From: Clostridiales bacterium | GTDB lineage: Bacteria > Bacillota > Limnochordia > Darwinibacteriales > B1SED10-159 | NCBI GenBank assembly: GCA_003551965.1 | Contig: PUOC01000011.1 | Span: 1 to 33,786, forward strand | DNA length: 33,786 nt | Reading direction: 5' to 3' | Shown: positions 1,836 to 23,663 of the stretch, piece after piece | Layout: every line of letters begins with the position of its first letter | Position numbering within the stretch: position 1 is the first letter of the stretch | Position numbers and translations under genes: made by a program | The notes under the pieces: generated by a model | What the model was told of the DNA's origin: nothing | The model's database searches: none | What the model saw: the letters and a program-made list of their open reading frames with translations, nothing else

Positions 1836-1885
1836 ACTGCGCCTCCCCGCCCATTGCCTTTCCTGCGGGAGGCGCAGTCCTTGTC
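1836..1885 (+). terminator. Strong hairpin after the Lon-like gene, possible terminator
   Basis: Perfect 12-bp inverted repeat, ACTGCGCCTCCC (1836-1847) and GGGAGGCGCAGT (1867-1878), with a 19-nt loop. The tail CCTTGTCTGG is poor in T, so it may be a weak intrinsic terminator or a 3'-end stabiliser. It separates the protease gene from the activase-like genes. Confidence 0.55.
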
Positions 1886-1932: not shown

Positions 1933-2859
1933 ATGATAATCGGAATACCACGGGCCTTTTTGTACCATCGCTACAGCACTCTTTGGAAGACGTTTTTCGA
2001 AGAACTGGGTATTGAGTATGTCATCAGCCCTGCTACAACCAGGGAAATAATGAGCCAAGGCATGGCATGTGCCATTGACGAGGCATGCCTCTCCTCTAAG
2101 GTGTATATCGGGCATGTGGAATGGCTGATAGACCGGTGTGATAAGATTCTCGTGCCACGGATTTCCTACTACGGTCCGCACGGCACCGTCTGCACCAAGT
2201 TCCAGGCCATCTACGATGTGGTCAGGAATACCTTTCGCAGCCGCTCGGCCGAATTTCTGGACTACAATATCGATACCCAGACCCCGGAAGGCGAGCCAAA
2301 GGCCTTTCTTAAGCTTGGCAAATCCTTGGGTCGCCGGACGTCTTCATCCATGCGCGCCTATCTTGTGGCCAGGCAAGCCCTGAAAGCAGACGAGCTTATG
2401 GAGCAGCGTCTGCAGGAAAAGCAGTTGGACGAACCAGGGATCAAGGTGTTGGTTGTATCGCACCGGTACAATATTTACGATAAGTTTATTGGAGAACCGA
2501 TTCTGCAAGATCTGCGAAGGATGGGGGTTGTCCCCGTGCTGGCTGACGCGGTTAACCGTCAGGAGGCCGTGAACGCTGCTGCTGAAATCAGCGGCACACT
2601 TCCTTGGGCTTTCAATAAAGAGCTGGTAGGAGCCATGGCGCTCTGGAAAGAGCGGGTGGATGGCATTATGCTGGTCAGTACCTTTCCATGCGGTCCGGAT
2701 TCGCTGGTCAATGAAATTGTGGTGCGCCGCATAGACGACATACCGATCTTGAATCTTGTCATTGACGGCCAAGAAGGCAGTGCAGGGCTGGAAACTCGCC
2801 TAGAGAGCTTCATTGATGTCATTAAGTTTAAGAGGGATGACTACAGTGCAGAAGTATAA
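1933..2859 (+). CDS. Acyl-CoA dehydratase activase-related protein (COG3580/DUF2229-like)
   Basis: 308-residue protein resembling the first part of the large 'CoA-substrate-specific enzyme activase' fusion proteins of Bacillota (DUF2229/COG3580). The substrate is unknown. Conserved-looking elements are the N-terminal IGIPRAFLYHRYSTLWKTFF, Cys-containing segments around DEACLSSKVYIGHVEWL and TVCTKFQAIYDV, and the C-terminal STFPCGPDSL...LVIDGQEG...TRLESF. These cysteines could hold an Fe-S cluster, by analogy with HgdB-like dehydratase subunits. The start is supported by AAGGAAGGCGG upstream. The 3' end overlaps the next gene, and the trio ends with a BadF-type ATPase, so the three probably form one complex. 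The family call is good; a biochemical function is not assigned. Confidence 0.85.
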   Translation: MIIGIPRAFLYHRYSTLWKTFFEELGIEYVISPATTREIMSQGMACAIDEACLSSKVYIGHVEWLIDRCDKILVPRISYYGPHGTVCTKFQAIYDVVRNTFRSRSAEFLDYNIDTQTPEGEPKAFLKLGKSLGRRTSSSMRAYLVARQALKADELMEQRLQEKQLDEPGIKVLVVSHRYNIYDKFIGEPILQDLRRMGVVPVLADAVNRQEAVNAAAEISGTLPWAFNKELVGAMALWKERVDGIMLVSTFPCGPDSLVNEIVVRRIDDIPILNLVIDGQEGSAGLETRLESFIDVIKFKRDDYSAEV

Positions 2860-3910
2860 AGTGAGCTTTCCTCACATTGCCAATTACTGGGTGCCCATGA
2901 AGATACTTTTTTCGGAAGGTCTGGACGTGGAGTATGTTGTACCGCCGCCGATAACCAAGCGTACCTTGGACTTGGGCAGCCGCTACAGTCCCGACTATGT
3001 CTGCGCGCCATTTAAGTACTGCCTCGGGAACTATATCGAAACCATGGAGGCAGGCGCTAATACACTGGTGCAGGCCGGCGGGGTATGCCGGTTGGGCTAC
3101 TATGGCGAGCTGCACGAACAGATCCTGCGGGATTTGGGATATGAGGTTCGCTTCGTCAATATGGCCCGTGCCCGCTTCTCCAAGCCGCTCATTATTTATA
3201 ATCATTTTCGAGAGATTAACCCTCATATGTCCGTAAAGCGCATTGCTCGAATTCTGCCGGTGGTCTTGAAGATGGTGGAGTGTATGGACGAAATAGAAGA
3301 CTATATGCGTAAGAATATTGGTTTTGAAGTCCAAAACGGATCGCTGGCGGCTGTCTATGAAGAGTTTCTGACAGATATATCGCAAGTGCGGACCAAACGC
3401 GAACTGCGCCGTGCTTACAACCGCTGCAAAAAACGGTTGCGGCGGGTTCCGTTGAACGTGCCGCAGCATCCCTTGCGGGTAGGTATTGTGGGTGAATATT
3501 ACACCATCATGGAACCGTTCAGCAACCACTATATTGAGCGGGAACTAGCACGCATGGGCGTGATAATCGATCGATGGATGAATATCACCAACTCGCTGCG
3601 CCCTTCTAGAAAACGGGACATCAGGAATCGCATCAAGCCCTACGCGAAGTATCACATGGGAGCTACCAGCATGTACACCATCGGAAAAGCGCTCGAGTTT
3701 GCCAAGCGGAAATATGACGGTATCATTCATGTCAAGTCCTTTGGGTGCACACCGGAAATGGATGCCATGCCAGCTCTGCAGAATATCAGCAGCGATCATA
3801 AGATACCGATTTTGTACTTCAGTTTCGATACCCAGACCAGCGACACCGGAATTCAAACCCGCCTGGAAGCATTTTACGACATGATGATCATGAGAAACGA
3901 GGCGAAGTAA
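2837..3910 (+). CDS. Acyl-CoA dehydratase activase-related protein (COG3581/DUF2229-like)
   Basis: About 357 residues, related to the upstream protein and to the second HgdB-like part of the big activase fusions (COG3581). It has Cys-rich segments near the N terminus (PDYVCAPFKYCLGN and AGGVCRLGYYGEL) and a C-terminal KSFGCTPEMDAMP...FDTQTSDTGIQTRLEAF block that parallels the C terminus of its neighbour, so the two look like diverged halves of one fold. The start is uncertain: ATG 2837 lies directly behind AGAGGG, whereas GTG 2846 is spaced 9 nt from it. Both overlap the previous gene, implying translational coupling, and the stop shares bases with the ATG of the activase gene. No substrate can be named. 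Confidence 0.83.
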   Translation: MTTVQKYKVSFPHIANYWVPMKILFSEGLDVEYVVPPPITKRTLDLGSRYSPDYVCAPFKYCLGNYIETMEAGANTLVQAGGVCRLGYYGELHEQILRDLGYEVRFVNMARARFSKPLIIYNHFREINPHMSVKRIARILPVVLKMVECMDEIEDYMRKNIGFEVQNGSLAAVYEEFLTDISQVRTKRELRRAYNRCKKRLRRVPLNVPQHPLRVGIVGEYYTIMEPFSNHYIERELARMGVIIDRWMNITNSLRPSRKRDIRNRIKPYAKYHMGATSMYTIGKALEFAKRKYDGIIHVKSFGCTPEMDAMPALQNISSDHKIPILYFSFDTQTSDTGIQTRLEAFYDMMIMRNEAK

Positions 3911-4860
3911 TGCGTAAGGCTTATCTAGGAATTGACATTGGTTCTATCTCCACAAAAGGAGTTATCATAGATGAAGACCAGGCCCTTCTGGCCCATGACT
4001 ACCTGGGAACGGAAGGCAATCCCATCGGTGCCGTGAAGCGCCTGCTGGCATCCATTGATGAACAGTTAGATCATGCCCGGTATAAAGTTGTTGCAGTGGG
4101 AACAACGGGAAGTGCGCGCAAATTGATTGGCGCCATGAACGGGGCGGCCATGGTCAAAAACGAGATCACCGCCCATGCCATTGGCACGGTTTCTCTGTAT
4201 CCTGATGTAAAAACGATTCTTGAGATCGGAGGCCAGGACTCAAAGATAATTCTCATTGACAATGGAGTTGTGGTGGATTATGCCATGAATACTCTGTGTG
4301 CCTCCGGCACCGGCGCGTTCCTATCCAGCCAGGCCCATCGGCTGGGGGTGAAGGTAGACCGTTTCGGCGAAATTGCACTGCGGTCCAAGAGCCCAACGCG
4401 CATTGCCGCCCGTTGTACGGTCTTTGCGGAGTCGGATTTGATCCATAAGGCCCAAATCGGCCATTCCCAAGAAGACATCATTGCCGGATTATGCCGATCT
4501 GTGGTCAGCAATTACTTAAACAACGTCGGGAAAGGCAAGGCGATTCGGCCGCCCCTTGTGTTTCAGGGCGGTGTCAGCAAGAATGTAGGGGTGGTAAGGG
4601 CCTTTGAAGAAGCTACGGGATATCCGGTGACCGTGGATGCCAACAGTCACCTCATCGGCGCCCTTGGGACAGCGATTTTGGCCAAGAAGTCGAAGTCGGA
4701 AACACCGTTCTCCTTCCAGATCACGGACATTAACTTTACCACTAAAGGCATGGAGTGTCAGCAATGCAGTAACCACTGCGAAGTGATATGCATATACCGA
4801 GACAATGAGTTGGTGGATGCATGGGGAAATCGCTGTGAACGCGGCGCCGTGCGGCCCTGA
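3910..4860 (+). CDS. 2-hydroxyacyl-CoA dehydratase activase-like ATPase (BadF/BadG/BcrA/BcrD, HgdC-type)
   Basis: 316-residue member of the ASKHA ATPases that drive low-potential electrons into 2-hydroxyacyl-CoA dehydratases, benzoyl-CoA reductases or double-cubane cluster proteins. The phosphate-1 motif is GIDIGSISTKG (7-17), with IGGQDSK at 106-112. Cys130 (CASGTGAF) and Cys169 (ARCTVFAES) match the two cysteines per subunit that bridge the [4Fe-4S] cluster at the HgdC dimer interface. An extra C-terminal group (C283, C286, C290, C294, C309), absent from short HgdC proteins, could hold a further cluster. The ATG overlaps the preceding stop. No HgdA/B dehydratase lies nearby; the two COG3580/3581-like proteins upstream are the likely partners. 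Confidence 0.92.
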   Translation: MRKAYLGIDIGSISTKGVIIDEDQALLAHDYLGTEGNPIGAVKRLLASIDEQLDHARYKVVAVGTTGSARKLIGAMNGAAMVKNEITAHAIGTVSLYPDVKTILEIGGQDSKIILIDNGVVVDYAMNTLCASGTGAFLSSQAHRLGVKVDRFGEIALRSKSPTRIAARCTVFAESDLIHKAQIGHSQEDIIAGLCRSVVSNYLNNVGKGKAIRPPLVFQGGVSKNVGVVRAFEEATGYPVTVDANSHLIGALGTAILAKKSKSETPFSFQITDINFTTKGMECQQCSNHCEVICIYRDNELVDAWGNRCERGAVRP

Positions 4861-8294: not shown

Positions 8295-11200
8295 GTGAGG
8301 ATTACCCGGCGAAGCTTTTTGAAAATAGGCGCCGCGACAGCAGCCTCCGCGTCGCTGAGCGGTTTAGGGTGGCCGCATGCGGCAGATGCATCCCAGAATC
8401 GATTGCGCATTCGCTACACCAAAGAATTTCACACCATCTGCACTTTCTGCGGTGTGGGATGCGGCATCATCTGTCACGTTCGAGACGGGGTCATCATAAA
8501 CACCGAAGGCGATCCCGACCATCCCATCAACGAAGGGACGCTCTGCAGCAAGGGAAGCTCCATCAGCAATATCTCGTACGTCTTCGACGAAGCGGGACGG
8601 CCGAAAGTGAATCCGAAGCGGCTGACCAAGGTTCTATATCGGGAGCCAGGCGGTGACAGTTATCAGGAAAAAGAGTGGGATTGGGCTTTAGATGCTATTG
8701 CCCGGCGGATCAAAGAAACCCGTGATGCCACCTTTGAAGTAGCGGCCACGGTCGGGGATAGGGAGGTGACGGTGAATCGAACACCCGCCATTGGATGGCT
8801 GGGGAGTGCTTTCTGCACGGGGGAGGAAAACTATTTATTCCACAAAATGGCCAGGGCCATTGGCGTTATTAGGATGGATCACTGTGCCCGGTTATGACAC
8901 TCTTCCACGGTCGCCGGTCTGGGCGCCACGTTTGGAAGAGGATGTATGACCAACCATTGGATTGACTATCAGCACAGCGACGTAATCATGGCCATAGGCG
9001 GCAATACTGCCGAGAACCATCCAGTTTCTATGAAATGGATTGAGCGCGCCCGGGAGAACAAAGGAGCGAAATTGATCTGTGTTGATCCCCGGTTCACACG
9101 TACAGCAGCGGTCTCAGACCTGCACGTGCCACTGCGGCCGGGCACGAACACAGCCTATTTGGGCGGTTTGATTCGCTACATCCTGGAGAACGAACTCTAC
9201 CATGAAGAGTATGTCCGCAGCTACACCAATGCTCCGTTCTTAATCCAAGGCGATTTCGGTTTTGATGCACTGACGGGTCTCTTTTCCGGTATCGAGGATG
9301 ATCCGCTGCGCAGTGCCAAACGATACGATCGCTCATCATGGCAGTACCAGAAAGACGAACATGGACATGATGCTGCCGATACCTCCATGCAGTCGCCCGA
9401 CTGCGTGCTGCAGCTGCTGCGAAAGCACTATGCCGATTATACAGTGGACAAGATTGCAGAGATTATCGGGTGTGACCGGGACGTGCTCGAAGAGTCCTAC
9501 CGTCTTTTTGCCACCACGGGAAAGCCCGGTAAAGCCGGGAATATTCTGTATGCCATGGGAATTACGCAGTTTACCCATGGGGCACAGAATGTTAGAGCTA
9601 TCGGCATCATCCAATCGCTACTGGGAAACATGGGTTTAGCAGGCGGAGGTGTCAATGCGCAACGAGGCCAGTCCAATGTGCAGGGTGCGACGGATATGGC
9701 CATACTCTATCACATAATGCCCGGTTATCTGGGCACTCCCCAACAGGCCCATCACGCCAGCCTCGCTGACTACCTGAGTCAGGAAACGCCCGAGGCCGGT
9801 TGGTGGACCAACAAACCCAAGTATTTTGTCAGCCTGCTGAAGGCGTTTTTCGGCAGGCATGCCGTGGAAGACAACGAGTTTGGTTACCAGTGGCTTCCCA
9901 AACTCGACGGCAACGACCATTCCCATATTGCCATGTACAAGTCCATGGCGGAAGGGGACATGGAAGGGTTGATCTGCTGGGCGGACAATCCGGCGGTGTC
10001 CGGTCCGACAGCAAGCGATAAACGTCGGTATACGGCCAACCTTAAGTGGCTGGTGTCCGTCGATCTCTTTGAAACCGAGACAGCTTCGTTTTGGAAAGAA
10101 ACGGGCAAGAACCCAGAGGACATTGACACGGAAGTATTCGTGCTTCCAGCGGCGGCATCGTATGAACGAGCAGGAAACAAGGCGAACAGCGGCCGCTGGA
10201 TTCAATGGCAGTGGAAGGTTCAAGATGCACCGGGAGAGTGTCAGTCGGATCTCTGGATTGTCAACGAGTTGTTTAAGCGCCTGCGGGATCTCTATGCCGA
10301 AGAGGGTGGTACGGTACCAGAGCCTATCGTCAACATGGCGTGGCAGTATGATGACAGCGGCGGGCAGATCGACATTGTGAAGGTCTGCCAAGAGATAAAC
10401 GGCTTCCACGTTGACAGCGGCAGCCTCGTCGAAAATTTCTTGGCACTACAGGATGACGGGTCCACGGCCTGCGGCAACTGGCTGTATAGCGGCTATTACA
10501 ATGATCTGAATAAGCCGCCGTGCCAGCGCCGGGAGCCGGAAACCGAAGGCATTGGCTCCCATCTGCAGTGGGCCTACGCATGGCCTCTCAACCGCCGTAT
10601 TGTGTATAATCGCTGTTCTGCTGACCCCGAGGGCAAACCTTGGAATCCAGATGTCCCCCAAGTTTGGTGGGATGATCAAACTTGGGAGTGGAAAGGCCAT
10701 GATGTGCCGGATTTCAATACCGGCCTGACACCGATTAATTCCAGCAGAGCTCCCTTTATCATGCTTCCCGAGGGCAAGGCGCGGCTGTTTTCCGCTTTTC
10801 TCAGTGACGGTCCATTGCCTTCGCACTACGAGCCAGCGGACAGTCCTACAGCCAACCTTCTCTACCCTGAAGCAAGCTTTAATCCCATCAGCCAGCGGTT
10901 CTACGAAAACCATGTGGTGGAAACGGATGCCGATAGAGAGAAGTATCCGCACGTGCTTACGACCTACAGGGTCGTGGAGCACTACCAAACAGGCATCATG
11001 ACCCGTAACATGCCGTGGTTGAACGAAATGATGCCTGAACTGTTCGTAGAAATCGATGAAGAGCTGGCGGCGGAATTAGGGATTGATAATGGCTGCCGGG
11101 TGGCCATTACGAGTAAACGGCTGGAAAACCAAGCCGGCATTGAGGCAAAGGCATGTGTAACACAGCGGCTGCGTCCTATGATGGTTAACGGGCGGAAGGT

Positions 11201-11351
11201 TCACGTGGTGGGTATGCCCTTCCACTGGGGATTCATGGGAATGAATAAGGGAGCGGTGGCCAATGATCTGACGCCATCCGTTGGTGATCCTAACACTACG
11301 ATCCCTGAGTTCAAGGCCTCTCTTTGCAGCATAAGGAGGTGCGATGAATGA
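8295..11351 (+). CDS. fdhA: Formate dehydrogenase catalytic subunit, selenocysteine-containing, Tat-exported
   Basis: Molybdo/tungstopterin enzyme oxidising formate to CO2. The gene reads through an in-frame TGA (8895-8897) as selenocysteine 201 and gives 1018 residues, like E. coli FdnG (1015, Sec196). The context DHCARL-Sec-HSSTVAGLGATFGRG matches FdnG DHQARV-Sec-HGPTVASLAPTFGRG. A twin-arginine signal (RRSFLK, residues 5-10, then a hydrophobic stretch and an Ala-rich cleavage region) indicates export. The [4Fe-4S] ligands are C49, C52, C56 and C84, followed by the SKG lysine. The bis-MGD domains and the C-terminal dinucleotide-binding domain are intact. GTG 8295 has AGGAGG 8 nt upstream. 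The stop overlaps the fdhB start (ATGA), so the subunits are translationally coupled. A standard gene finder would split it at the TGA. Confidence 0.96.
8895..8897 (+). other. Selenocysteine UGA codon of formate dehydrogenase
   Basis: TGA in frame between two ORFs that together align end to end with FdnG. It replaces the active-site Sec/Cys ligand of Mo/W and is followed by His, as in known enzymes. The two flanking frames are the same frame, so no frameshift is needed. Confidence 0.95.
8909..8927 (+). promoter_or_regulatory. Bacterial SECIS element of fdhA
   Basis: Stem GGT-(bulged C)-GCC paired with GGC-GCC (with one U-G pair), closing an apical loop that contains GGTCTG. It starts 11 nt after the UGA, as in E. 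coli fdhF, which has the same plan (GGU, bulged U, GC, loop AGGUCU). The GGUC loop and the bulged pyrimidine are the SelB-binding features. Confidence 0.88.
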
Positions 11352-12151
11352 GAAGCCAGATCTGTCTGATTGACACCTCCAAGTGTATAGGCTGCCGTGC
11401 CTGCCAATCAGCCTGTAAACAATGGAACCAGTTGCCGGCGGAAAGCACCACATTCCAGGGCAGCTACGAAAATCCACCATATTTTTCCTGCATGACCTGG
11501 ACGAAGGTGGTGTTTCGAGAGCACAACGACAATGGCCGCACTAGCTGGTATATGTCGAAGCAGGGATGTATGCACTGCACAGACGCGGCCTGTATTCTGG
11601 CCTGCCCGACAGGGGCCATTCATCACACGGATCATGAAACGGTGGCCATTAATGAAATAAAATGTATTGGCTGCAACTACTGTGCTGCTGCCTGTGCGTT
11701 TCGGGTGATCGGGTTCGATCGCAGTGCCAATTTCGCCAAGAAATGCACCTTCTGTTATGAACGGATCAGAAGCGGATTGAAACCTGCCTGCACGTCCGCC
11801 TGCCCCACGGGCTCTCTGGTGTTTGGAGAAGAACGGACCATCATCAGGCAAGCACAGGACCGAATCGAACAGCTGCGTGCCAATGGCCGGTCACAAGCTA
11901 GGATATACGGGCTCAATGAGGTGCAGGGAACGGCGATGCTGTACGTCTTGGAAGACTTCCCCGATCGATACGGCCTCCCAGCCGATCCTTCGGTCCCTAT
12001 TCAGACCCGAATTTGGAATGCCATCTACGGGCCGCTTCGGATTGCCGTTGTGTTGGCGGTTACGTTCAGTCTCTGGGCCAACTTCAACAAAAACCGCGAA
12101 TTGGACGAAGGGAAGGCATCACGCCAGGATGCGGGAGGTGGGAAGCGATGA
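11348..12151 (+). CDS. fdhB: Formate dehydrogenase iron-sulfur (beta) subunit with C-terminal membrane anchor
   Basis: 267-residue electron-transfer subunit of the FdnH/FdoH type. Sixteen cysteines form four [4Fe-4S] sites: C13/16/19/23, C74/77/82/86, C106/109/112/116 and C133/136/148/152. A single hydrophobic helix (about 227-246, YGPLRIAVVLAVTFSLW) near the C terminus is the family's membrane anchor; the Fe-S domain is exported together with FdhA through the catalytic subunit's Tat signal. AAGGAGGT lies 6 nt before the ATG, which overlaps the fdhA stop, and the TGA stop overlaps the next start by 4 nt. In FdnGHI the next gene would be the cytochrome b FdnI; here it is rnfC. Confidence 0.94.
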   Translation: MRSQICLIDTSKCIGCRACQSACKQWNQLPAESTTFQGSYENPPYFSCMTWTKVVFREHNDNGRTSWYMSKQGCMHCTDAACILACPTGAIHHTDHETVAINEIKCIGCNYCAAACAFRVIGFDRSANFAKKCTFCYERIRSGLKPACTSACPTGSLVFGEERTIIRQAQDRIEQLRANGRSQARIYGLNEVQGTAMLYVLEDFPDRYGLPADPSVPIQTRIWNAIYGPLRIAVVLAVTFSLWANFNKNRELDEGKASRQDAGGGKR

Positions 12152-13464
12152 CCATCAGGCATTTTCTGGGCGGTCTGCGAGTTCCGCATTACAAGACCTT
12201 TACGGAAGAGAAGTTCATTGAAGCCGTCGCTGCACCGTCGGAACTGGTGATCCCGCTCCAGCAGCACATTGGTGCTCCCTGCAGTGCCTTAGTGGAAGTG
12301 GGCGATACGGTGCAGGCGGGTCAGAAAATCGGCGAACCAACCGGTTTTGTCAGTGCTCCCGTGCATGCCAGCTTGTCCGGCCGGGTCAGCGCTGTGGAAA
12401 GCCGCCGCACACATTCAGGGCAGGAGGCCCTTTGCGTAGTCATTGACGTCGACAGTGAGCAGGTGCCGCGGCGTGCGCCAGAAAACCGCTCGAGTAACCT
12501 GACAAGGGAAGACATTATCACTGCGGTTCGAGATGCCGGGGTTGTAGGAATGGGCGGAGCTGGATTTCCCACCGCGGTCAAACTGCAGCCTCCTGCGGAC
12601 AAACCCGTTGATACTGTGATCCTCAACGGGTGTGAATGTGAGCCTTATTTGACATGCGATCACCGTATGATGGTGGAAATGCCGGAACAGATTCTCCAAG
12701 GAGCATCATATATTCGCCAAGCCCTAGATGCAGAGACAGTCTTGGTCTGTGTGGAAGATAATAAGAAGGACGCCATCGATGCTCTGCGGGCAAAGAATAC
12801 GGATCAGCAGACGCAGATTTTGAAAGTGCCTACGAAATATCCCCAGGGTGCGGAAAAGCAGCTGATCAAGGCCGCCACAGGCCGTGAAGTTCCTCCCCAG
12901 GGACTGCCCTTTGAGGTCGGCGTCGTTGTGCAGAATGTGGGTACCGCTGCCGCGGTCTGTGATGCTGTCGAATACGGCAGGCCCCTCCTGGAACGTGTGG
13001 TAACCGTCACCGGCCAGAATTTGGCTGAGCCCAAGAATCTTCGTATTCCCATCGGTACCCTGCTGTCCCATGTCATTGAACAGTGCGGCGGGATGAAGGA
13101 AAACCCGGCGAAGGTTATTGTGGGCGGGCCTATGACCGGTGCCGCTCAGGCTGACTTGTCAGTTCCCGTGACAAAGGCGGTGACTGGGATAACAGTGCTA
13201 GGCCCGGCCATGGCGGTCAGCGACAGGGAGTACGATCACTGCGTGCGCTGCGGCCGTTGCGTGGACAAATGTCCGATGCTGTTGTACCCCAATCAGATCA
13301 GTGTTTTCTGTGAAGCCAATCTCATTGAGCGGGCGCGGCAGTGGAACACCATGGACTGCATTGAGTGCGGCATCTGCGCCTTCGTCTGTCCAGCACAAAG
13401 GCCTATCGTCCGGTTTGTGCAGGAGATGAAACCGCAGATTCAAGCAGCACAGCGATCTTCGTAG
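12148..13464 (+). CDS. rnfC: RnfC-like electron transport subunit (NADH/FMN and two 4Fe-4S sites)
   Basis: 438-residue RnfC homologue; in Rnf complexes this cytoplasmic peripheral subunit exchanges electrons with NAD(H). ATG 12148 forms an ATGA overlap with fdhB; an upstream extension of the frame to 12013 is only overlap. The N-terminal barrel-sandwich domain (about 30-100) is followed by the Complex I 51K-like nucleotide/FMN domain (GMGGAGFPT at 134-142, LNGCECEPYLTCDHRMM at 159-175), an SLBB-like part, and two [4Fe-4S] motifs (C365/368/371/375 and C404/407/410/414). All RnfC parts are present, so it should be functional. Its place directly behind a formate dehydrogenase, coupled by overlap, suggests it is that enzyme's NAD-reactive module. 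Full-length RnfC proteins are often a little longer at the C terminus. Confidence 0.9.
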   Translation: MTIRHFLGGLRVPHYKTFTEEKFIEAVAAPSELVIPLQQHIGAPCSALVEVGDTVQAGQKIGEPTGFVSAPVHASLSGRVSAVESRRTHSGQEALCVVIDVDSEQVPRRAPENRSSNLTREDIITAVRDAGVVGMGGAGFPTAVKLQPPADKPVDTVILNGCECEPYLTCDHRMMVEMPEQILQGASYIRQALDAETVLVCVEDNKKDAIDALRAKNTDQQTQILKVPTKYPQGAEKQLIKAATGREVPPQGLPFEVGVVVQNVGTAAAVCDAVEYGRPLLERVVTVTGQNLAEPKNLRIPIGTLLSHVIEQCGGMKENPAKVIVGGPMTGAAQADLSVPVTKAVTGITVLGPAMAVSDREYDHCVRCGRCVDKCPMLLYPNQISVFCEANLIERARQWNTMDCIECGICAFVCPAQRPIVRFVQEMKPQIQAAQRSS

Positions 13465-13495
13465 GCGGCAACCGTTTTGAAAGGAGGCTGATCCG

Positions 13496-14470
13496 GTGAA
13501 AGGCGATGCAGACTTGGTCGTTTCGTCTGCTCCGCATCTGCGTGACAGACAGACTGTAGGACTGGCAATGCGCGATGTTTTCGTAGCGCTTATGCCGGTA
13601 ACGGCCGTTTCTATCTATTACTTCCATTGGAATGCGCTGTTTCTCATAAGCGTGTGCTTGCTGACCGCCGTATTGACAGAGGTTCTGTTTCGGCGGATGA
13701 TGAAGAAAGAACCAACACTCTATGATTGGAGCGCTGTGTTAACCGGGTTGTTTGTGGCCATGCTGTTCCCAGCCACAACGCCATGGTGGAAGGCGGCCCT
13801 GGCCGTGTTTATCGGGGTTGGCTTTGCCAAAGAACTAGCCGGCGGATTGGGTCGAAACCGCTTCAACCCGGCGCTGTTTGGATTGGTGGCTCTCATGTTA
13901 TTGGCCCCGTTGGTGGCGCTTCTGGATGAGCAGTTTGCCTCGCTGTATGTCAGTTTTGGTACAGTGGATGTCCTGACCCAAGCAACGCCCTTGGCCATGC
14001 TTCACCAAGGGATGGAGATGCCCAGCTATGGACGATTGCTGACGGCATTTCCCGGAGGAGCTTTAGGTGAAACATCACCGCTGTTTTTGCTGATAGGGGC
14101 AGCTTATCTATTTTTCCGCGGTCACCTAAACTGGAGGATTCCGGCGTCGATTTTGATTACCGTTGCAGCACTGACCACGGCCCTTGGCCAGAATCCTATC
14201 CAACATCTGTTGGTGGGGAGTCTTCCGCTGGGAGCATTTTTCATGGCCACCGATTGGGTGACCAGTCCGTTTACCAATAAGGGGAAGTACGTATTTGGCA
14301 TCTGCATTGGTATAGGGGTGGTGATGTTTCGGCTCGGCTTATCTCCCACTGAAGGAGTGGCGTACTCCATTTTGATCATGAACGGTTTTGTACCCATGAT
14401 TGAGCGCTGGACCCTCAGACCGCAGTTTGGACGCCACAGCCGTAGTGCAGTCAGTGCAGCAGAAAGATAG
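13496..14470 (+). CDS. rnfD: RnfD-like membrane flavoprotein subunit
   Basis: 324-residue polytopic membrane protein of the NqrB/RnfD family with about nine to ten hydrophobic helices. It keeps the GGLGRNRFNPALFG motif (116-129) and the covalent FMN site: VDVLTQATPL, where Thr164 corresponds to the Thr in the (S/T)xAT motif that binds FMN by phosphoester at the outer face of the membrane. GTG 13496 has AAAGGAGG about 10 nt upstream and lies 31 bp after rnfC. A strong terminator follows (14501-14530), so the operon ends here; rnfG, rnfE, rnfA and rnfB are not in the window. I infer that RnfD anchors RnfC to the formate dehydrogenase. Confidence 0.92.
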   Translation: MKGDADLVVSSAPHLRDRQTVGLAMRDVFVALMPVTAVSIYYFHWNALFLISVCLLTAVLTEVLFRRMMKKEPTLYDWSAVLTGLFVAMLFPATTPWWKAALAVFIGVGFAKELAGGLGRNRFNPALFGLVALMLLAPLVALLDEQFASLYVSFGTVDVLTQATPLAMLHQGMEMPSYGRLLTAFPGGALGETSPLFLLIGAAYLFFRGHLNWRIPASILITVAALTTALGQNPIQHLLVGSLPLGAFFMATDWVTSPFTNKGKYVFGICIGIGVVMFRLGLSPTEGVAYSILIMNGFVPMIERWTLRPQFGRHSRSAVSAAER

Positions 14471-14765: not shown

Positions 14766-16076
14766 ATGTTGAAAACGCTGCTGCTGACACAAGGCGCATT
14801 TTATGACGGGAGAGGGGCCAACTTGGCACATCGTACAGCAAAAGGTGCATATAAGCAGTTGCAGGAGAGGTTGAACCGGTTCCCCCAGGGTGCTCCACCC
14901 TCGGATACCTTATATGAAATTCTTCGCATGTTGTTTGCAGAGAAAGAAGCTGCCCTGGTGGCGCAGCTTCCCATAAAGCCGTTTTCGGCGCTGACAGCAG
15001 CCAAAATCTGGGGCATGAAGCAGGCCGAGGCCGAGAAAGTCTTAGACACACTGGCGCGGCGAGCGGTCTTATTGGACACGTACGACGGCAGAACAAAGCG
15101 ATACACGCTGCCGCCTCCCATGGCCGGATTTTTCGAGTTTTCCTTGATGCGCACGCGGGGAGACGTTGACCAAGCGCTGCTCGCAGACCTACTCTATCAG
15201 TACCTGAATGTGGAAGAAGAGTTTGTTCGCGATCTGTTTCTCGGCAGTGAGACCAAATTGGGTAGAGTGTTTGTACAAGAAGAGGCGCTGACCCACGACA
15301 ATACCATTCATATTCTTGACTTTGAGCGGGCCAGCCATGTCATCGAAGAGGCAAACCATATTGGGATCAGTATGTGCTACTGCCGCCACAAACAGGAGCA
15401 TCTCGGGAGGGCATGCCATGCGCCTATGGATATCTGCATGACGTTTAACAATACCGCAACGTCACTGATCCGGCATGAATACGCTAGAAGGGTCGATGCA
15501 TCGGAATGCTTGGAACTGCTGCATTGCGCCTACGAAAACAATCTGGTGCAGTGCGGTGAAAACGTGCAGGAAAACGTGGCTTTCATCTGCAACTGCTGCG
15601 GCTGCTGCTGTGAAGCGATGATAGCAGCGCAGAAGTTCGGTATATTGCAACCGGTGGAAACCACGCACTTCCTTCCGAACGTGAAAGACGACATATGTTC
15701 CGGTTGCGGCCGCTGTGCGAATGCCTGTCCCATCGCTGCCATATCCTGTGACGGAGGGAATGCCGCAGTTGATGAACGGGTTTGCTTAGGCTGCGGCGTT
15801 TGCGTACGCGCCTGTTTGGCGGGTGCTTTGGTGCTTCGGCGGCGGGACAAAGAGGTCATAACACCGGTCAATTCTGTTCACCGGGTTGTCTTAATGGCCA
15901 TCGAAAAGGGCAAACTCCAGCACTTGATATTTGACAAGCAGGCATTCGCTAGCCACCGGGCAATGGCAGCGGTTATCGGCGTCATTCTTCGTCTGCCGCC
16001 GATAAAGCAGGCCATGGCCAGTCGCCAGATGAAGTCCGTCTATCTACAGCGGCTGATCCGAAAATTTACGCCGTAG
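14766..16076 (+). CDS. 4Fe-4S dicluster protein with N-terminal winged-helix-like region
   Basis: 436 residues with two ferredoxin motifs (C311/314/317/321 and C340/343/346/350), a CNCCGCCC run (C275-C282) and an earlier set (C204, C206, C217, C224: MCYCRH...CHAPMDIC). The N-terminal part (about 45-120) looks like a winged helix: a helical region (ALTAAKIWGMKQAEAEKVLDTLARRAVL) followed by a short basic wing (DTYDGRTKRYTLPPP). Ferredoxin-like proteins of this design occur in anaerobes; I know of no proven function. Possible roles are redox sensing or electron transfer; no catalytic domain is recognised. It stands alone between the FDH operon terminator and the MATE gene and may be controlled by the leader upstream. 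The ATG has GGAG 11 nt before it. Confidence 0.8.
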   Translation: MLKTLLLTQGAFYDGRGANLAHRTAKGAYKQLQERLNRFPQGAPPSDTLYEILRMLFAEKEAALVAQLPIKPFSALTAAKIWGMKQAEAEKVLDTLARRAVLLDTYDGRTKRYTLPPPMAGFFEFSLMRTRGDVDQALLADLLYQYLNVEEEFVRDLFLGSETKLGRVFVQEEALTHDNTIHILDFERASHVIEEANHIGISMCYCRHKQEHLGRACHAPMDICMTFNNTATSLIRHEYARRVDASECLELLHCAYENNLVQCGENVQENVAFICNCCGCCCEAMIAAQKFGILQPVETTHFLPNVKDDICSGCGRCANACPIAAISCDGGNAAVDERVCLGCGVCVRACLAGALVLRRRDKEVITPVNSVHRVVLMAIEKGKLQHLIFDKQAFASHRAMAAVIGVILRLPPIKQAMASRQMKSVYLQRLIRKFTP

Positions 16077-18497: not shown

Positions 18498-18717
18498 TCG
18501 AAGCAGCTGTTTTCTGAGACTTGGCCATGCTTTCCCTGGGTATAACCGAAAATCCCAGACGTACAAAGGGCATCGAACCGCTGGGTTTAAGACGCGGCTG
18601 CCATCTGCCGGCCGGTAACAAAAGTCGAGAATATACCACTTTCACGTGTGCTCGGTTGTCTATCCTGGACTGTTTCGCCGCAACGGGCATAATCCGAAAA
18701 AGGAGGCGCAGGCTTGT

Positions 18718-20520
18718 ATGGATCCCGAACGCAGAAGAGAACTGGTGTCCAAAAGGGAACTGGCGAAAAAACTGCGCAGAGCCGAGGCGGAAGCTAGAAA
18801 GAAGGCAATTCGAGAAAGGCCGCCGTTCAAGGGTTTGCAGATCCGCCCGACCGCCTCGCTGTTTGATGAGTCAGGGAAGCAGGAGCCGGGTGAAAACAAT
18901 TGGGCCGGCTTTGGCTTTGACATCCATCCTCAAGTGACCATCGTTTCGTCAATCCTTTTGGTTGCCTTTATTGCACTGACATTGAGTTTCCCATCTCGGG
19001 CAGAAGATTTGTTCGAGAATGCACTGCATGTGATCTCCAACAACGCCGGTTGGTTTTTGATCCTCGTGGCTAATGTATTCATTGTGGCAGCGCTGTATTT
19101 TGCCCTGGGCAAGTTTGGCGAAATACGCATTGGAGGACCGGATGCCCAGCCGGAATTCACAAAAGTGGGCTGGTACGCCATGCTCCTCAGTGCCGGCATG
19201 GGCATCGGACTACTGTTTTGGAGTGTCAGCGAGCCCCTGCTGCATTTGGGTACACCATCGCCGATGTTCGGCGGCATCGCTCCCGGTTCATCGGCGGCTG
19301 CGCAGGCTTCAATGGTTACAACCTACTTCCATTGGGGAATTCATCCATGGGCGATTTATTCCATTGTCGGTTTGGGGCTGGCGTTTTTTGCCTATAACCG
19401 CGCTCTGCCCTTGACCATTCGTTCGGTGTTCTATCCTTTGATCGGCAACCGCATCTACGGTTTCTGGGGAAATGCCATTGACGTTCTTTCTGTATTGGCG
19501 ACGTTGACCGGTCTGGCCACATCCTTGGGGCTTGGAGTGGCCCAGGTAAACGCCGGACTCAGTTTCTTGTTTGACATCAGCATTGATACTACCACGCAAG
19601 TCCTGTTGATTGCCGGCATCACTGGTTTAGCCACGATCTCCGTTATGCTGGGTTTGGATGGCGGCGTCAAGCGGCTTTCAGAGATGAACATGGCATTGGC
19701 CGGCATCTTTATGCTCTTTGTGCTGTTCGTCGGCCCAAGCGTGTACATCCTCAGCGGTTTCACCCAGAATATCGGGTATTATGTCGCCCAATTTGCGGAA
19801 ATGAGCATGTGGACCGAAACATTCCGTGAGACCAACTGGCAGGGTGGCTGGACAGTGTTTTACTGGGCTTGGTGGATTTCTTGGTCACCATTTGTCGGCA
19901 TGTTCATTGCACGCATATCCAAAGGCCGTACTGTGCGCGAGTTCATCCTTGGTGTGATGCTCTTTCCCACGCTTTTGTCGTTCCTGTGGATGTCCGTCTT
20001 CGGCGGCAGTGCACTTTCCATCCAGACCAGCGGCATCGCTGACCTGGTCTCGGCAGTGCAGATTGACGAAGCAGTGGCACTGTTTGCCATGCTTGAACAC
20101 CTGCCCCTGACGCAATTGCTGTCGGTGGTGGGGGTTATCCTGGTTACCGTCTTTTTTATCACGTCCTCGGACTCCGGTTCTCTGGTTGTGGATCACTTAA
20201 CGTCCGGCGGGAAGCTGGATTCCCCGGTTCCGCAGCGGGTGTTCTGGGCGATCATGGAGGGGGTTGTGGCGGCAACACTTCTAATAGGCGGCGGGCTTAC
20301 GGCTCTGCAGACGGCATCCATTACCACCGGACTTCCGTTTGCCTTTATTTTGCTCTTGATGATCTATTCCATGTATGCAGGTTTTGCCCAGGAGTATGAA
20401 GTGGAAGAGGCGGTGCGCAGAAAACTGCAGGAGGTGGAAGAAAAACACATGCTTGATGAAGCCATAACCGAGGCTGTCCAAGACGAAGCTTTAGTGGATC
20501 CAGACCAAAAAAGCTATTGA
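18718..20520 (+). CDS. BCCT family betaine/carnitine/choline transporter
   Basis: 600-residue secondary transporter for trimethylammonium osmoprotectants such as glycine betaine. About twelve membrane helices follow a basic N-terminal tail (1-70). Family marks are SAGMGIGLLFWSVSEPL (the GMGIG unwound helix of the Na+-coupled carriers BetP and relatives), YFHWGIHPWAIY, and the signature segment FYWAWWISWSPFVGMFIARIS with its Trp-rich substrate box. The C-terminal tail is acidic and helical (EYEVEEAVRRKLQEVEE), possibly osmosensory. ATG 18718 has AAAGGAGG 11 nt upstream; the longer frame from 18646 is not needed. A strong terminator follows. The gene heads a group with the N-acetyl-beta-lysine genes, supporting an osmotic role. 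The 220-base leader (18498-18717) holds no other gene. Confidence 0.95.
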   Translation: MDPERRRELVSKRELAKKLRRAEAEARKKAIRERPPFKGLQIRPTASLFDESGKQEPGENNWAGFGFDIHPQVTIVSSILLVAFIALTLSFPSRAEDLFENALHVISNNAGWFLILVANVFIVAALYFALGKFGEIRIGGPDAQPEFTKVGWYAMLLSAGMGIGLLFWSVSEPLLHLGTPSPMFGGIAPGSSAAAQASMVTTYFHWGIHPWAIYSIVGLGLAFFAYNRALPLTIRSVFYPLIGNRIYGFWGNAIDVLSVLATLTGLATSLGLGVAQVNAGLSFLFDISIDTTTQVLLIAGITGLATISVMLGLDGGVKRLSEMNMALAGIFMLFVLFVGPSVYILSGFTQNIGYYVAQFAEMSMWTETFRETNWQGGWTVFYWAWWISWSPFVGMFIARISKGRTVREFILGVMLFPTLLSFLWMSVFGGSALSIQTSGIADLVSAVQIDEAVALFAMLEHLPLTQLLSVVGVILVTVFFITSSDSGSLVVDHLTSGGKLDSPVPQRVFWAIMEGVVAATLLIGGGLTALQTASITTGLPFAFILLLMIYSMYAGFAQEYEVEEAVRRKLQEVEEKHMLDEAITEAVQDEALVDPDQKSY

Positions 20521-20532
20521 GAGCGTTGAATG

Positions 20533-20575
20533 CAACAGCTGCAGCCCCTATTGCCGGCGGCAGCTGTTGTTTCTT
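20533..20575 (+). terminator. Intrinsic terminator after the BCCT gene
   Basis: AACAGCTGC (20534-20542) pairs with GCAGCTGTT (20560-20568), followed by GTTTCTTT. The loop is 17 nt. It begins 13 bp after the stop. Confidence 0.75.
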
Positions 20576-20620
20576 TCAGCAGAAGTTCAGACAGCTAGAT
20601 GACTTGCTTGCTGACACAGT

Positions 20621-20648
20621 TTGCGGTTTTTCCTGCATGTGGTATACT
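20621..20648 (+). promoter_or_regulatory. Probable promoter of the 204-residue protein/ablAB group
   Basis: TTGCGG (20621-20626), a 16-bp spacer and TATACT (20643-20648) with an extended -10 TGG. It is followed by an untranslated leader of about 150 bases containing a CCTGTC/GGACAGG hairpin near 20697-20712. Confidence 0.55.
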
Positions 20649-20807
20649 AAAAGCCTGGATTATATACGGTGAAAACGATGGCATGGTTCTGTGGTCCTGT
20701 CTTTTGGACAGGCTGTCCATATCGGCCCGGAACCTGCTTGTCGCGCGCCGCTTGTCCCCGGGGACTGGACGGGTGCTGCCAAATACGGCGGGATATGAGG
20801 TGAAGCT

Positions 20808-21422
20808 GTGAAAACGACCTGCAAGGATATGCCTTTCCAGCTTAATGGTTACGGTGGAGTGCTCCAGGTGATCTATGAGGAAAACCGCAGCACTCATCGC
20901 TCTGGATTCGATTTGTTTGAACGACTGGGTTTCGATTCGCAGCGCTGTATTGGCTATCCTACTATGCGCGCCTTTGTCAAGAATTATGGCGGCACAGGGT
21001 ACTATACCATAAGCGCTTGGATTCAGATTATCACAAGCTTGCGGTATGCAAGCCAGGATGGAGAAGACGCTGCAGAGGTAGTCTCCGAAATCGACAGGTG
21101 TGAGACTATGGCTGCCTGTGGTGTGCCATTCTTTGCGCACGGTTATCCGACCGCCATCTATGATGCTCCCTGTGACAATCTGCGAGGTTCGTCCCGTCTG
21201 GAATGGATCGCCGATACGTTTTTTGTTACATACCCCAGCCGAATCAATGATGATTGCATTGCGTATCTTGCCGGTTTCCGCTGGGGGTATGATGAATGGG
21301 ATGACACTGACGGCCAGCGGCGTGTTTCCATTCGACCATTGCAGAAAACGAACCGTTCGGTTTGGCAGCACTTCGTTCCTGTCATGGAGCAGCACTGTCC
21401 CCGTTGGACTTTCCAGCGCTAG
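20808..21422 (+). CDS. Hypothetical protein, 204 residues, in the osmoadaptation group
   Basis: I do not recognise this protein. It is soluble-looking, without signal peptide or membrane helix, and rich in aromatic residues. The segments [39 protein letters not shown] and [14 protein letters not shown] look constrained. GTG 20808 has GAGGTGA 4 nt upstream. The opposite strand is open over 284 codons (20595-21449), but it lacks a ribosome site and reads like a shadow. The stop lies 107 bp before ablA and a promoter lies upstream, so it may be cotranscribed with ablA and ablB. A role in osmoadaptation is only an inference from position. Confidence 0.65.
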
Positions 21423-21529
21423 ATAGACGGTGCCGTGCTGCCCGTCCAATCAGGCTGCATCAGTTGAACAGCCGGGTTGCGATTGTTTTGGACTGTAAGC
21501 AAGTTGCGTGTTTAAGGAGGAACGTCGAA

Positions 21530-22828
21530 GTGAATAAATATCAAGCCAGTATCGCCCAACTTTTGGATGCGGGCGCCGGCGCGGACCAGTGGGCCGATTG
21601 GCACTGGCAGCTGCGTCATTCCATAGACACTGTGGAGTTGTTTGAGAAGGTTTTGGGGATTACCTTTTCCGATGCGGCCCGCAGCATTTTAGAGAAGACT
21701 GTCGAGCGATTTCCCCTCTCTATTACCCCTTATTATGCGTCGCTGATTGATAGGGAACACTATAAAGAGGATCCGGTATTTAAACAGGCATTTCCCATGC
21801 CCCAGGAGCTGCGCGTGCAGGAATACGATATGGAAGATCCGCTTACGGAGGATGCAGACAGTCCGGTGCCCGGCATAACCCACCGCTATCCCGATCGGGT
21901 ATTGTTCCATGTCAGCAATGTCTGCTCCATGTACTGCCGCCACTGTACCCGCAAACGAAAAGTCGGTGACGTGGATTCGATTCCCACCAAGGAAGTTCTA
22001 CGCCGAGGCGTAGAATATATCAGGTCGACACCGGCCGTGCGGGATGTTCTGCTTTCCGGAGGCGACCCATTCTTACTCCATACCGAATACCTGCAGTGGC
22101 TGCTCGACGAAATATCGGCCATTCCTCATGTGGAGATTATCCGCATTGGTACCCGTACGCCTGTCGTTCTGCCCAGCCGGGTCACCGATGAACTCGTGGA
22201 TATGCTGCGGCAATACCATCCGTTGTGGATCAATGTACATTTTAACCATCCCAAGGAAATGACCGCTGAGGCAGCCGCGGCTGTGGCGAAATTGGCCGAT
22301 GCCGGTTTTCCCTTAGGAAATCAGAGTGTCCTTCTAGCGGGAGTCAATGACTCTGTTGCCGTTATGAGAAGGTTGTGCCACATCCTCGTCCAGCACCGCA
22401 TTCGCCCTTACTATGTTTACCAATGTGACCTGTCTGAGGGTCTGGCGCATTTCCGAACGCCTGTGGGAAAAGGCATTGAGATCATGGAAAGTCTCATTGG
22501 TCATACCAGCGGCCTCTGTGTTCCCACCTATGTAATTGATGCCCCCGGCGGCGGCGGCAAGATTCCCGTGCTGCCGAACTATATTCTGTCTTGGTCCAGC
22601 AACAAGGTAGTACTGCGCAATTATGAAGGTGTGATCACAACTTATCAAGAACCGGAACGGTACCAGGTTACCCGCTCCGACGAGCCTTGGGACGAGGCAG
22701 TGGACAAAGTGCACGAAATGACACCCATCGGTGTCGAAAAACTGCTTTCCGATGAGGACGAAGCCATATCACTGGTACCTGAAAACACAGATAGAATAGG
22801 ACGGAGAAACGGCAATGGACAGGATTGA
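21530..22828 (+). CDS. ablA: Lysine 2,3-aminomutase
   Basis: Radical SAM/PLP enzyme that moves the alpha-amino group of L-lysine to give L-beta-lysine. It is 432 residues from GTG 21530, which has AAGGAGG 9 nt upstream (the longer frame to 21362 overlaps the previous gene). The cluster motif is C132-x3-C136-x2-C139 (CSMYCRHC). Lys344 in DAPGGGGK binds PLP. Asp300 (YQCDLS) and Asp337 (VIDAPGG) match the two aspartates that hold the epsilon-amino group of lysine in the Clostridium enzyme, which argues for lysine rather than glutamate as substrate. The overlap with the acetyltransferase gene identifies the pair as ablAB, making N-epsilon-acetyl-beta-lysine, rather than a lysine-fermentation enzyme. 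Confidence 0.96.
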
Positions 22829-23663
22829 AAGGATGGACGGCTGCCTTGTCCAGCATGGACCTGAAAACGAACGCATCTATCTGATGCGGGTGGATGGGGA
22901 CATGAGCAACGGCAGTATCGTGAAATTGGTTGCGGAAGCCGAAAAACGGCAGTACACGAAAATAACAGCGAAGATCCCCAAGCGGTTGGAGGCGGCGTTT
23001 GCGGCGGCGGGGTTTGTTCGCGAAGCGGTAATTCCCGGATTCTTCCTGGGTGAAGAAGAAGCGGTGTTTATGTCACTGTTCCTCTCCAAGCAGAGAAGTC
23101 GTTTGGGTGAGAACGAAGGCTTGATTCATGATGTTCTGCGCAAGGCAGAGGAACGGGAGTCGGGGGCCCGCCCTCAGCTGGCCAAGGGGTTCACCTGGAA
23201 AGTGGCCGATGCAGTCATGGCTCCGGAGATCGCGGAGCTGTACGGGAAAATTTTTGAGACCTATCCTTTTCCCATACATGATCCCTCTTATATACAGCGC
23301 ACCATGGCAGATGGTTCGGTGGTGTACTATGCTGCCCTGAGTTCTCCAGGAAGCATTGCTGCACTGGCGTCTTCGGAACTGGATCGCCAAGCCCTGGGCG
23401 TGGAAATGACAGATTTCGCCACCGACACCGGCGTGCGGGGAAACGGTTTGGCGGCCTTTCTGTTAGCGCAGATGGAACGGGACATGGCCGAAGAGGGCTA
23501 CCGCACCGCCTATACCATTGCCAGGGCGGTGTCCTACGGGATGAACCTGACATTTGCCGGTTTGGGGTATGCATACGGCGGAACCTTGGTCAACAATACC
23601 AACATTGGCGGCCAGCTCGAAAGCATGAACGTCTGGTACAAGCCGCTGCGTCCTCAGAGCTGA
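22815..23663 (+). CDS. ablB: Putative beta-lysine N6-acetyltransferase
   Basis: 282-residue GNAT protein of the AblB type that acetylates the epsilon-amino group of beta-lysine to give the compatible solute N-epsilon-acetyl-beta-lysine. The N-terminal domain (1-120) has [39 protein letters not shown], and the catalytic half has [21 protein letters not shown]...[26 protein letters not shown] (motif A) and the C-terminal [25 protein letters not shown], characteristic of AblB. It overlaps ablA by 14 bp, so the two are coupled. The 3' end overlaps the convergent esterase gene by 10 bp. Confidence 0.94.

Follow-up and report, generated by a model that had tools for sequence, protein, structure and literature searches.

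What might two HgdB-like proteins and an activase reduce when no dehydratase is encoded beside them? The question is raised by three genes, here called A, B and C, at positions 1933 to 4860 of a 33,786-nucleotide stretch of DNA from Clostridiales bacterium (the window; contig PUOC01000011.1 of GenBank assembly GCA_003551965.1, forward strand). A first-pass annotation, made from the sequence alone, read them as a split activase system that may act on a different, hard-to-reduce substrate, as proposed for double-cubane cluster proteins (DCCP). Here we describe A-B-C as a real, conserved and widespread gene set that forms a paralogous variant, in three genes, of the recently characterised family of the plasmalogen synthase PlsA. 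The set most probably encodes an ATP-driven [4Fe-4S] reductase; that it reduces a lipid ester, and not a CoA thioester, is a tentative proposal, to which we give a little less than even weight.

Two HgdB-fold subunits and an activase in three overlapping genes

The three open reading frames (ORFs) lie on one strand and overlap. Gene A (1933..2859, forward strand) encodes a 308-residue, Red1-like protein that matches the Pfam family DUF2229 (E 8e-42), and gene B (2846..3910, forward strand), which overlaps the end of A, encodes a related Red2-like protein (22.6% identity between A and B, E <1e-8). The B frame in the ORF list runs from a TTG at 2813 to 3910 (365 residues), but a start at the GTG at 2846 (354 residues), which lies behind AAGAGG and agrees with where the consensus of the B family begins, is more likely; in the A2 alignment the window row begins at 2840, two codons ahead of this likely start. 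Gene C (3910..4860, forward strand), whose ATG overlaps the stop codon of B by one base, encodes a 316-residue activase of the BcrAD_BadFG (ASKHA) type (Pfam E 4.6e-50; TIGR00241 193.7 bits against a cut-off of 125.4). B matches DUF2229 only weakly (E 1.7e-7) and HGD-D with E 1e-6, the latter over the C-terminal 62 positions of the profile (281-342 of 342), and A has no HGD-D match, so that neither protein carries the full-length HGD-D domain of a 2-hydroxyacyl-CoA dehydratase. The family libraries (Pfam, NCBIfam) label the split set solely as DUF2229 plus a generic activase.

AlphaFold2 models of A (from a 44-row alignment; pLDDT 92.1) and B (40 rows; pLDDT 92.2) fit the HGD-D fold across almost their full length. 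The best matches of the A model were DCCP (Z 16.1, root mean square deviation (rmsd) 3.8, 259 residues aligned), HadC (Z 15.5, rmsd 3.7, 261 aligned) and BzdN (Z 14.6, rmsd 3.8, 263 aligned), against Z 9.3 for the best unrelated structure. The B model matched HadC (Z 16.8, rmsd 4.6, 299 aligned), DCCP (Z 16.5, rmsd 4.2, 292 aligned) and BzdN (Z 16.5, rmsd 4.5, 287 aligned), with the best unrelated structure at Z 10.4. The HadB and BzdO chains scored lower (12.3-12.4 for A, 13.2-13.7 for B), the BzdN and BzdO chains being assigned by chain length in these matches. With Z scores of 14.6-16.8 against HadC, DCCP and BzdN, both subunits are predicted to take the HgdB-type fold of the benzoyl-CoA reductase/2-hydroxyacyl-CoA dehydratase (BCR/HAD) superfamily, in agreement with the first-pass annotation, which had called them HgdB-like.

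The gene order recurs well beyond the window. We collected 40 loci from across the phylum, one per genome, hand-picked from the upper part of the DUF2229 listing and therefore favouring high DUF2229 scorers. A and B were adjacent in 40 of 40, and C came next in 36; two loci (L136, L155) lack an adjacent C, and two (L120, L149) stop at a contig or fetch end, or close to one, before C. In another locus, L065, A and C are present and B was not found between them. Since the A-B-C order is repeated in many genomes, the arrangement is not due to chance, and the three genes are coupled as the annotation had proposed.

Invariant cysteines

Conserved cysteines were counted in a first set, consisting of the window, loci from a similarity search and L039, and in the 40 phylum loci. 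Three cysteines are invariant in A (C52, C87 and C253; 46/46 in the first set, 40/40 in the phylum loci) and three in B (C64, C92 and C312, in the numbering of the 365-residue form; 42/42 and 41/41). Each subunit's last conserved cysteine aligns with a cysteine of HadC when PDB sequences are searched by profile. In C, the two dimer-cluster cysteines, C130 and C169, are kept in 40/40 and 36/36, as are C283, C286, C290 and C309, whereas C195 is kept in 40/40 and 32/36. The annotation was thus right about the two cluster cysteines of the activase and right in part about a five-cysteine tail: four of the five are invariant, and the fifth, C294, is a cysteine in only 8/40 of the first set and 0/36 of the phylum loci. 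The resulting Cys4 tail (4756..4836, forward strand; CxxCxNxCE...GNxC) is absent from three classical activases of 261-262 residues that lie beside full-length HGD-D genes of relatives; this control links the tail to the PlsA and split group. The tail may bind either a relay cluster or zinc.

No recognised dehydratase partner and no CoA-contacting arm in the models

Reading through the listed ORFs of the window by eye revealed no dehydratase, CoA transferase or acyl-CoA dehydrogenase, and Pfam or NCBIfam scans of some of the larger ORFs recognised none either, which agrees with the earlier remark that none lies nearby. A classical hgdAB pair elsewhere in the genome would have spoken against a separate role; in the window's draft genome no full-length HGD-D gene was found, the sole HGD-D match being B itself. 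Such a gene occurs in three of 60 relatives (G023, G029, G034). Five other BcrAD_BadFG proteins score above the cut-off in the window genome, and none of them fits the C profile at E 1e-3.

The predicted folds point the same way. In BzdO, according to the part of the structural report that deals with CoA binding (PMC11971306), an N-terminal arm and helix 15:32 touch the phosphopantetheine and the 3'-phosphoadenosine part of CoA. The first model residue of A aligns with BzdO residue 39 and that of B with residue 34, so both models lack the arm and the helix, which argues against a CoA thioester substrate as far as the models can tell.

Fused relatives probably correspond to plasmalogen synthase

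Searches with the A, B and C profiles also recovered fused relatives with the order activase1, activase2, A, B, in which the second activase domain bears the CxxCxNxC...GNxC tail. Among fused sequences of at least 1100 residues, the Cys4 tail and the three-plus-three cysteine set are found in 26/26 (the last B cysteine in 24/24 non-gap rows). Complete fused frames in seven loci (L167-L173) span 1420-1481 residues, and five of six loci with shorter frames encode an activase-activase-A protein (971-1006 residues) followed by a separate B (415-485 residues); in the sixth, L163, the B frame was not recovered. In the sections of the paper on plasmalogen synthase that describe its genes and domains (PMC12838417), the enzyme is assigned to the BCR/HAD family, makes plasmalogens in E. 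coli and is drawn with the domains Act1, Act2, Red1 and Red2; single-gene plsA measures 4,248 bp in E. faecalis, 4,311 bp in L. cremoris and 4,920 bp in B. longum, and C. perfringens has a two-gene plsA-plsR operon on a 4,199-bp fragment. The activase-activase-A plus B form fits this fragment. Its order of domains and its length, taken with what has been published on the enzyme, make it very probable that the fused protein is PlsA. The annotation had referred to one very large protein of unknown function; the same domains do exist as such a protein, which no longer lacks a function. Of 14 control genomes, four match DUF2229, Lactococcus lactis being one of them. Thermotoga maritima also matches, and Thermotoga has a PlsA homologue (GeR) that makes alkyl ethers.

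Two genes in the literature may likewise be PlsA. In the excerpts concerned, SMU_0438c of S. mutans, annotated as dehydratase-activator-related, is up 2.2-fold under manganese depletion (PMC6952196), and in L. oligofermentans the gene of a CoA-substrate-specific activase bears a Rex-like motif (PMC4972977).

The split set is a separate lineage

The first-pass annotation described a split form of the large protein, but the set is not just a division of that protein, as fused and split forms are separate lineages. In a quick activase tree without bootstrap, split (40) and fused (28) rows fall on opposite sides of one branch (SH-aLRT 86), and in the A tree 29 of 30 fused rows group together, the long-branched L084 standing apart, so that two changes are needed. 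The window set lies outside the PlsA-type (fused) clade and, in place of the Act1-Act2-Red1-Red2 order, has Red1, Red2 and one activase in three genes. By our own count from the genome match listing, a full split-type A is present in 47 of 60 genomes and both types are present in 26 of 60; these 26 comprise 24 with a high-scoring fused frame of at least 940 residues, G017 with a weaker, 1436-residue frame, and the window genome, in which the frames are cut. From its separate clade and single activase gene, we conclude that the window set is a three-gene paralogue of the PlsA-type protein.

The window genome holds two PlsA-type gene fragments, on contigs C157 (L115) and C121 (L116), both cut by contig starts; they are 72.8% identical to each other and 69-71% identical to the complete gene of G001. 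The PlsA-type activase half was not found in this draft genome. Split-type and no fused-type matches were found in the records of Lutispora thermophila and Syntrophaceticus schinkii and in a metagenome-assembled genome (MAG) of Clostridium thermobutyricum. In a phylum sample of 199 genomes, 145 carry split-type A (E up to 1e-60) among the matches listed, and relatives of A-B-C also occur in Woesearchaeota and Helarchaeota records. A second B-like gene stands near A-B-C in two loci (L071:6181-7371, 396 residues; L129:4309-5478, 389 residues).

Relatives of A-B-C often lie behind spoVA genes

In 44 window-like loci no Pfam family occurred in more than seven of 100 scanned neighbours (GerA in three), probably because these loci were chosen by similarity to the window. 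Among them, spoVAF lies directly upstream in L051-L053 only, A overlapping it by four bases in L051, and spoVA genes lie further off in L049 and L050. The phylum loci gave a different picture. Their 147 neighbours include 17 GerA/SpoVAF, 13 SpoVAE1, 12 SpoVAC/SpoVAEB and three SpoVAD proteins and 10 diaminopimelate decarboxylases, and same-strand spoVA genes stand at the upstream end of A in 27 of 40 loci, L149 having been left out of this count as an apparent repeat of the L049 region. The gene before A is spoVAF in 15, spoVAE1 in two, SpoVAEB-like in two and SpoVAD-like in one; in five others it encodes a small membrane protein without a Pfam match that adjoins SpoVAEB, and in two spoVAF lies one gene further. 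Downstream of the split set, lysA is found in 10 of the 40 loci. In B. subtilis lysA also lies beside spoVA, so that its position need not concern A-B-C.

The association extends to whole genomes. Among the matches listed for the 199 genomes, with genome lists matched by eye and split A taken at E up to 1e-60, 140 genomes have both SpoVA (PF03862) and split A, 33 SpoVA only, five split A only and 21 neither (odds ratio 17.8, p 1e-9, with descent ignored); a family that is not listed in these family-match tables is not thereby excluded. PlsA-type frames (DUF2229 E <1e-70) show the opposite association, occurring, among the matches listed, in 38 of 173 SpoVA genomes and 18 of 26 genomes without SpoVA. 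In a quick A+B tree of 82 rows without bootstrap, the spoVA-linked label was given to 33 loci (the 27, L049-L053, and L119 on lysA alone) and needs six changes; all 33 fall within one subtree of 53 (SH-aLRT 86). The window clade is separate (nine rows, SH-aLRT 100) and has no spoVA-linked member. In the window genome, a 98% complete draft, there was no SpoVAC/SpoVAEB match and there were two Spo0A_C matches; lost sporulation, a draft gap or an unusual spore former are possible explanations.

A literature search that covered few subscription journals found no paper linking spoVA with the split A-B-C family. The split set behind spoVA genes in relatives is possibly an overlooked sporulation-associated enzyme.

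Which substrate?

The genomic context raises the possibility that the same ATP-driven machinery acts on a non-lipid substrate of spore formation or of the dipicolinate, diaminopimelate and lysine branch, such as a dicarboxylate that is aromatic or unsaturated. The position of A behind spoVA genes and the downstream lysA would suit such a substrate, and ring-reducing enzymes are known within the superfamily; yet the window clade lacks spoVA linkage, relatives occur in the archaeal records mentioned above, and the neighbourhood known from B. subtilis offers another reason for lysA. We regard this explanation as unlikely, with roughly one chance in four. An enzyme of the classical type that works on a CoA thioester, whether a 2-hydroxyacyl-CoA dehydratase or an aromatic acyl-CoA reductase, is more doubtful still. 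It would belong to the same superfamily, and C shares 32-34% identity with the activases encoded next to full-length HGD-D genes; against it stand the partial HGD-D match of B, the lack of recognised CoA-pathway genes nearby, the missing CoA-contacting arm in both models and the absence of the Cys4 tail from the three classical activases.

The DCCP analogy drawn by the first-pass annotation fares worst. It could appeal to the fold, as DCCP is among the top matches of both subunits, and to the activase gene alongside, but the cysteines speak otherwise. The ligand description of the benzoyl-CoA reductase structure (PMC11971306) gives BzdO one [4Fe-4S] cluster bound through C95, C128 and C380, and BzdN an [8Fe-9S] cluster bound through six cysteines. 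A and B, with three invariant cysteines each, fall short of the six ligands and are both of the three-cysteine type, which makes a double-cubane cluster unlikely; the NCBIfam double-cubane model NF040772 gives B 15.2 bits against a cut-off of 350 and does not match A, and two different subunits replace a homodimer. A double-cubane cluster in A or B was rejected on the cysteine counts, and a DCCP-like reductase appears highly improbable. What survives of the annotation's suggestion is that the substrate probably differs from that of a classical dehydratase. At the other extreme, A-B-C might be a three-gene plasmalogen synthase that carries out the exact PlsA reaction, in which a phospholipid's sn-1 acyl ester becomes a vinyl ether, redundantly with a fused gene. 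The shared domain kinds and tail, and the split-only L. thermophila, S. schinkii and C. thermobutyricum MAG, would fit; the finding that 26 of 60 genomes, the window's included, also carry PlsA-type genes and the opposite SpoVA associations of the two types make this improbable, about as much so as a CoA thioester enzyme.

Our preferred reading, held tentatively and by analogy with PlsA, is that A-B-C is an ATP-driven BCR/HAD-superfamily reductase on the PlsA/PlsR plan, divided among three genes, with a lipid ester as substrate. Two points favour a lipid ester: both models lack the CoA arm, and plasmalogen synthase is, to our knowledge, the only characterised enzyme with this domain set. Several points weigh against it. 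The lipid substrate is carried over from a paralogous group, to whose fused sequences A, B and C are about 22-39% identical over aligned stretches, and PlsA has two different activase domains where A-B-C has one activase gene. The fused protein was equated with PlsA by description, the trees being built without any characterised PlsA sequence, and no model naming PlsA was among the NCBIfam matches to the fused protein. Because PlsA-type genes coexist with the split set and relatives are linked to spoVA, there is room for another substrate, and the two PlsA-type fragments in the window genome suggest that A-B-C may have one there too. Finally, DCCP also scores high by fold and has, as far as we know, no CoA substrate, so that the missing CoA arm is not specific to lipids.

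Proposed mechanism and closest known systems

Activases of the superfamily form a dimer around one [4Fe-4S] cluster, are reduced by ferredoxin or flavodoxin, and drive single-electron transfer with ATP. From this, together with the PlsA architecture and the cysteine pattern, we infer cluster types, stoichiometry and an electron path for A-B-C. C would form a homodimer in which C130 and C169 from both chains bind one [4Fe-4S] cluster, and this dimer would take over the part of the two PlsA activase domains; as the fused proteins have two activase domains, one A and one B, a 2:1:1 complex is suggested. Ferredoxin or flavodoxin would reduce C, and ATP hydrolysis by C would push single low-potential electrons into an A:B heterodimer, in which each subunit would bind one [4Fe-4S] cluster on its three cysteines and one of the two clusters, with an open iron site, would reduce the substrate. 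The Cys4 tail could bind either a structural zinc or a further cluster that passes on electrons from ferredoxin or flavodoxin. The substrate would be a membrane-lipid ester, not a CoA thioester, and the product a vinyl ether or some related ether.

Among characterised systems, PlsA and PlsA-PlsR (E. faecalis, L. cremoris, B. longum, C. perfringens) are the closest: the kinds of domain agree (activase, Red1 corresponding to A and Red2 to B), and the PlsA-type sequences analysed here have the Cys4 tail and the three-plus-three cysteine set in common with A-B-C. They are encoded by one or two genes with the activase first, whereas A-B-C has three genes with the activase last and forms a separate clade with often spoVA-linked relatives. 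The 2-hydroxyisocaproyl-CoA dehydratase HadBC with its activator (3o3m, 4eht) and the 2-hydroxyglutaryl-CoA dehydratase activator HgdC (1hux) share the fold of A and B, the activase core and the three-cysteine [4Fe-4S] pattern of the HadBC cluster ligands, also seen in BzdO; they differ in that A and B lack the N-terminal CoA arm, no CoA-pathway neighbours were recognised, and C has the extra Cys4 tail. DCCP and DCCP-R (6eno, 7yyl) share the fold and the activase partner, but DCCP is a homodimer rather than A plus B, and its six-cysteine double-cubane site, read here in the DCCP-related BzdN, compares with three cysteines. The class I benzoyl-CoA reductases BzdNO(PQ) and MbdONPQ (8s02, 9gai) also combine two related subunits with an activase and include the BzdO-like three-cysteine set, whereas A-B-C lacks a six-cysteine BzdN-like subunit and a CoA arm and has one activase gene.

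Other genes of the window

A Lon-like protease gene lies upstream of A, with a perfect 10-bp inverted repeat between the two (1837..1877, forward strand) that looks terminator-like by eye. Downstream of C lies mnmH, for tRNA 2-selenouridine synthase (NF008751, 463.7 bits). A selenium link was considered, and dropped when no linked gene class appeared among 100 of 154 neighbours in 44 loci; a STRING table in one paper, as excerpted, places a CoA-substrate-specific activase near selenium genes (PMC5322559).

Further along, 8295-14470 contains a gene for formate dehydrogenase-N alpha whose frame includes a TGA (1105 bits to TIGR01553 if this codon is translated as U), followed by an FDH-beta-like FeS subunit, rnfC and rnfD. 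Inspection by eye of the window ORFs of at least 150 residues showed no rnfG, A, B or E, and the formate dehydrogenase may be coupled to a partial Rnf. The 436-residue product of the gene at 14766-16076 has C-terminal 4Fe-4S motifs, numerous additional cysteines and weak ferredoxin-domain matches only. The region 18646-23663 encodes a BCCT transporter (621.5 bits), a lysine 2,3-aminomutase (TIGR03820, 703 bits) and a 282-residue ORF product without a Pfam match that looks acetyltransferase-like by eye; it is possibly an N-acetyl-beta-lysine osmolyte set, which would suggest a salt-adapted host. A 204-residue ORF before the aminomutase gene (20808-21422) has no Pfam or NCBIfam match at 1e-5 and may not be a gene.

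Implications

The tie between A-B-C and plasmalogen synthase offers a concrete and cheap assay, in which E. coli is examined by Schiff staining and by mass spectrometry of its lipids. The linkage of relatives to spoVA indicates the phenotypes to look for, which are spore membrane lipids, dipicolinate content and germination. One further idea, which we consider unlikely at about one chance in five, is that the split set is a second, sporulation-associated lineage of lipid-ester reductases, co-expressed with spoVA in spore-forming Clostridia, that remodels the membrane of the developing spore to plasmalogen or other ether lipids, the window clade having kept the enzyme without recognisable SpoVA. 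If this spore lipid reductase is real, a step of endospore formation in Clostridia would have been overlooked so far; if it is not, the split set would be an ATP-driven reductase that awaits characterisation and acts on a new substrate.

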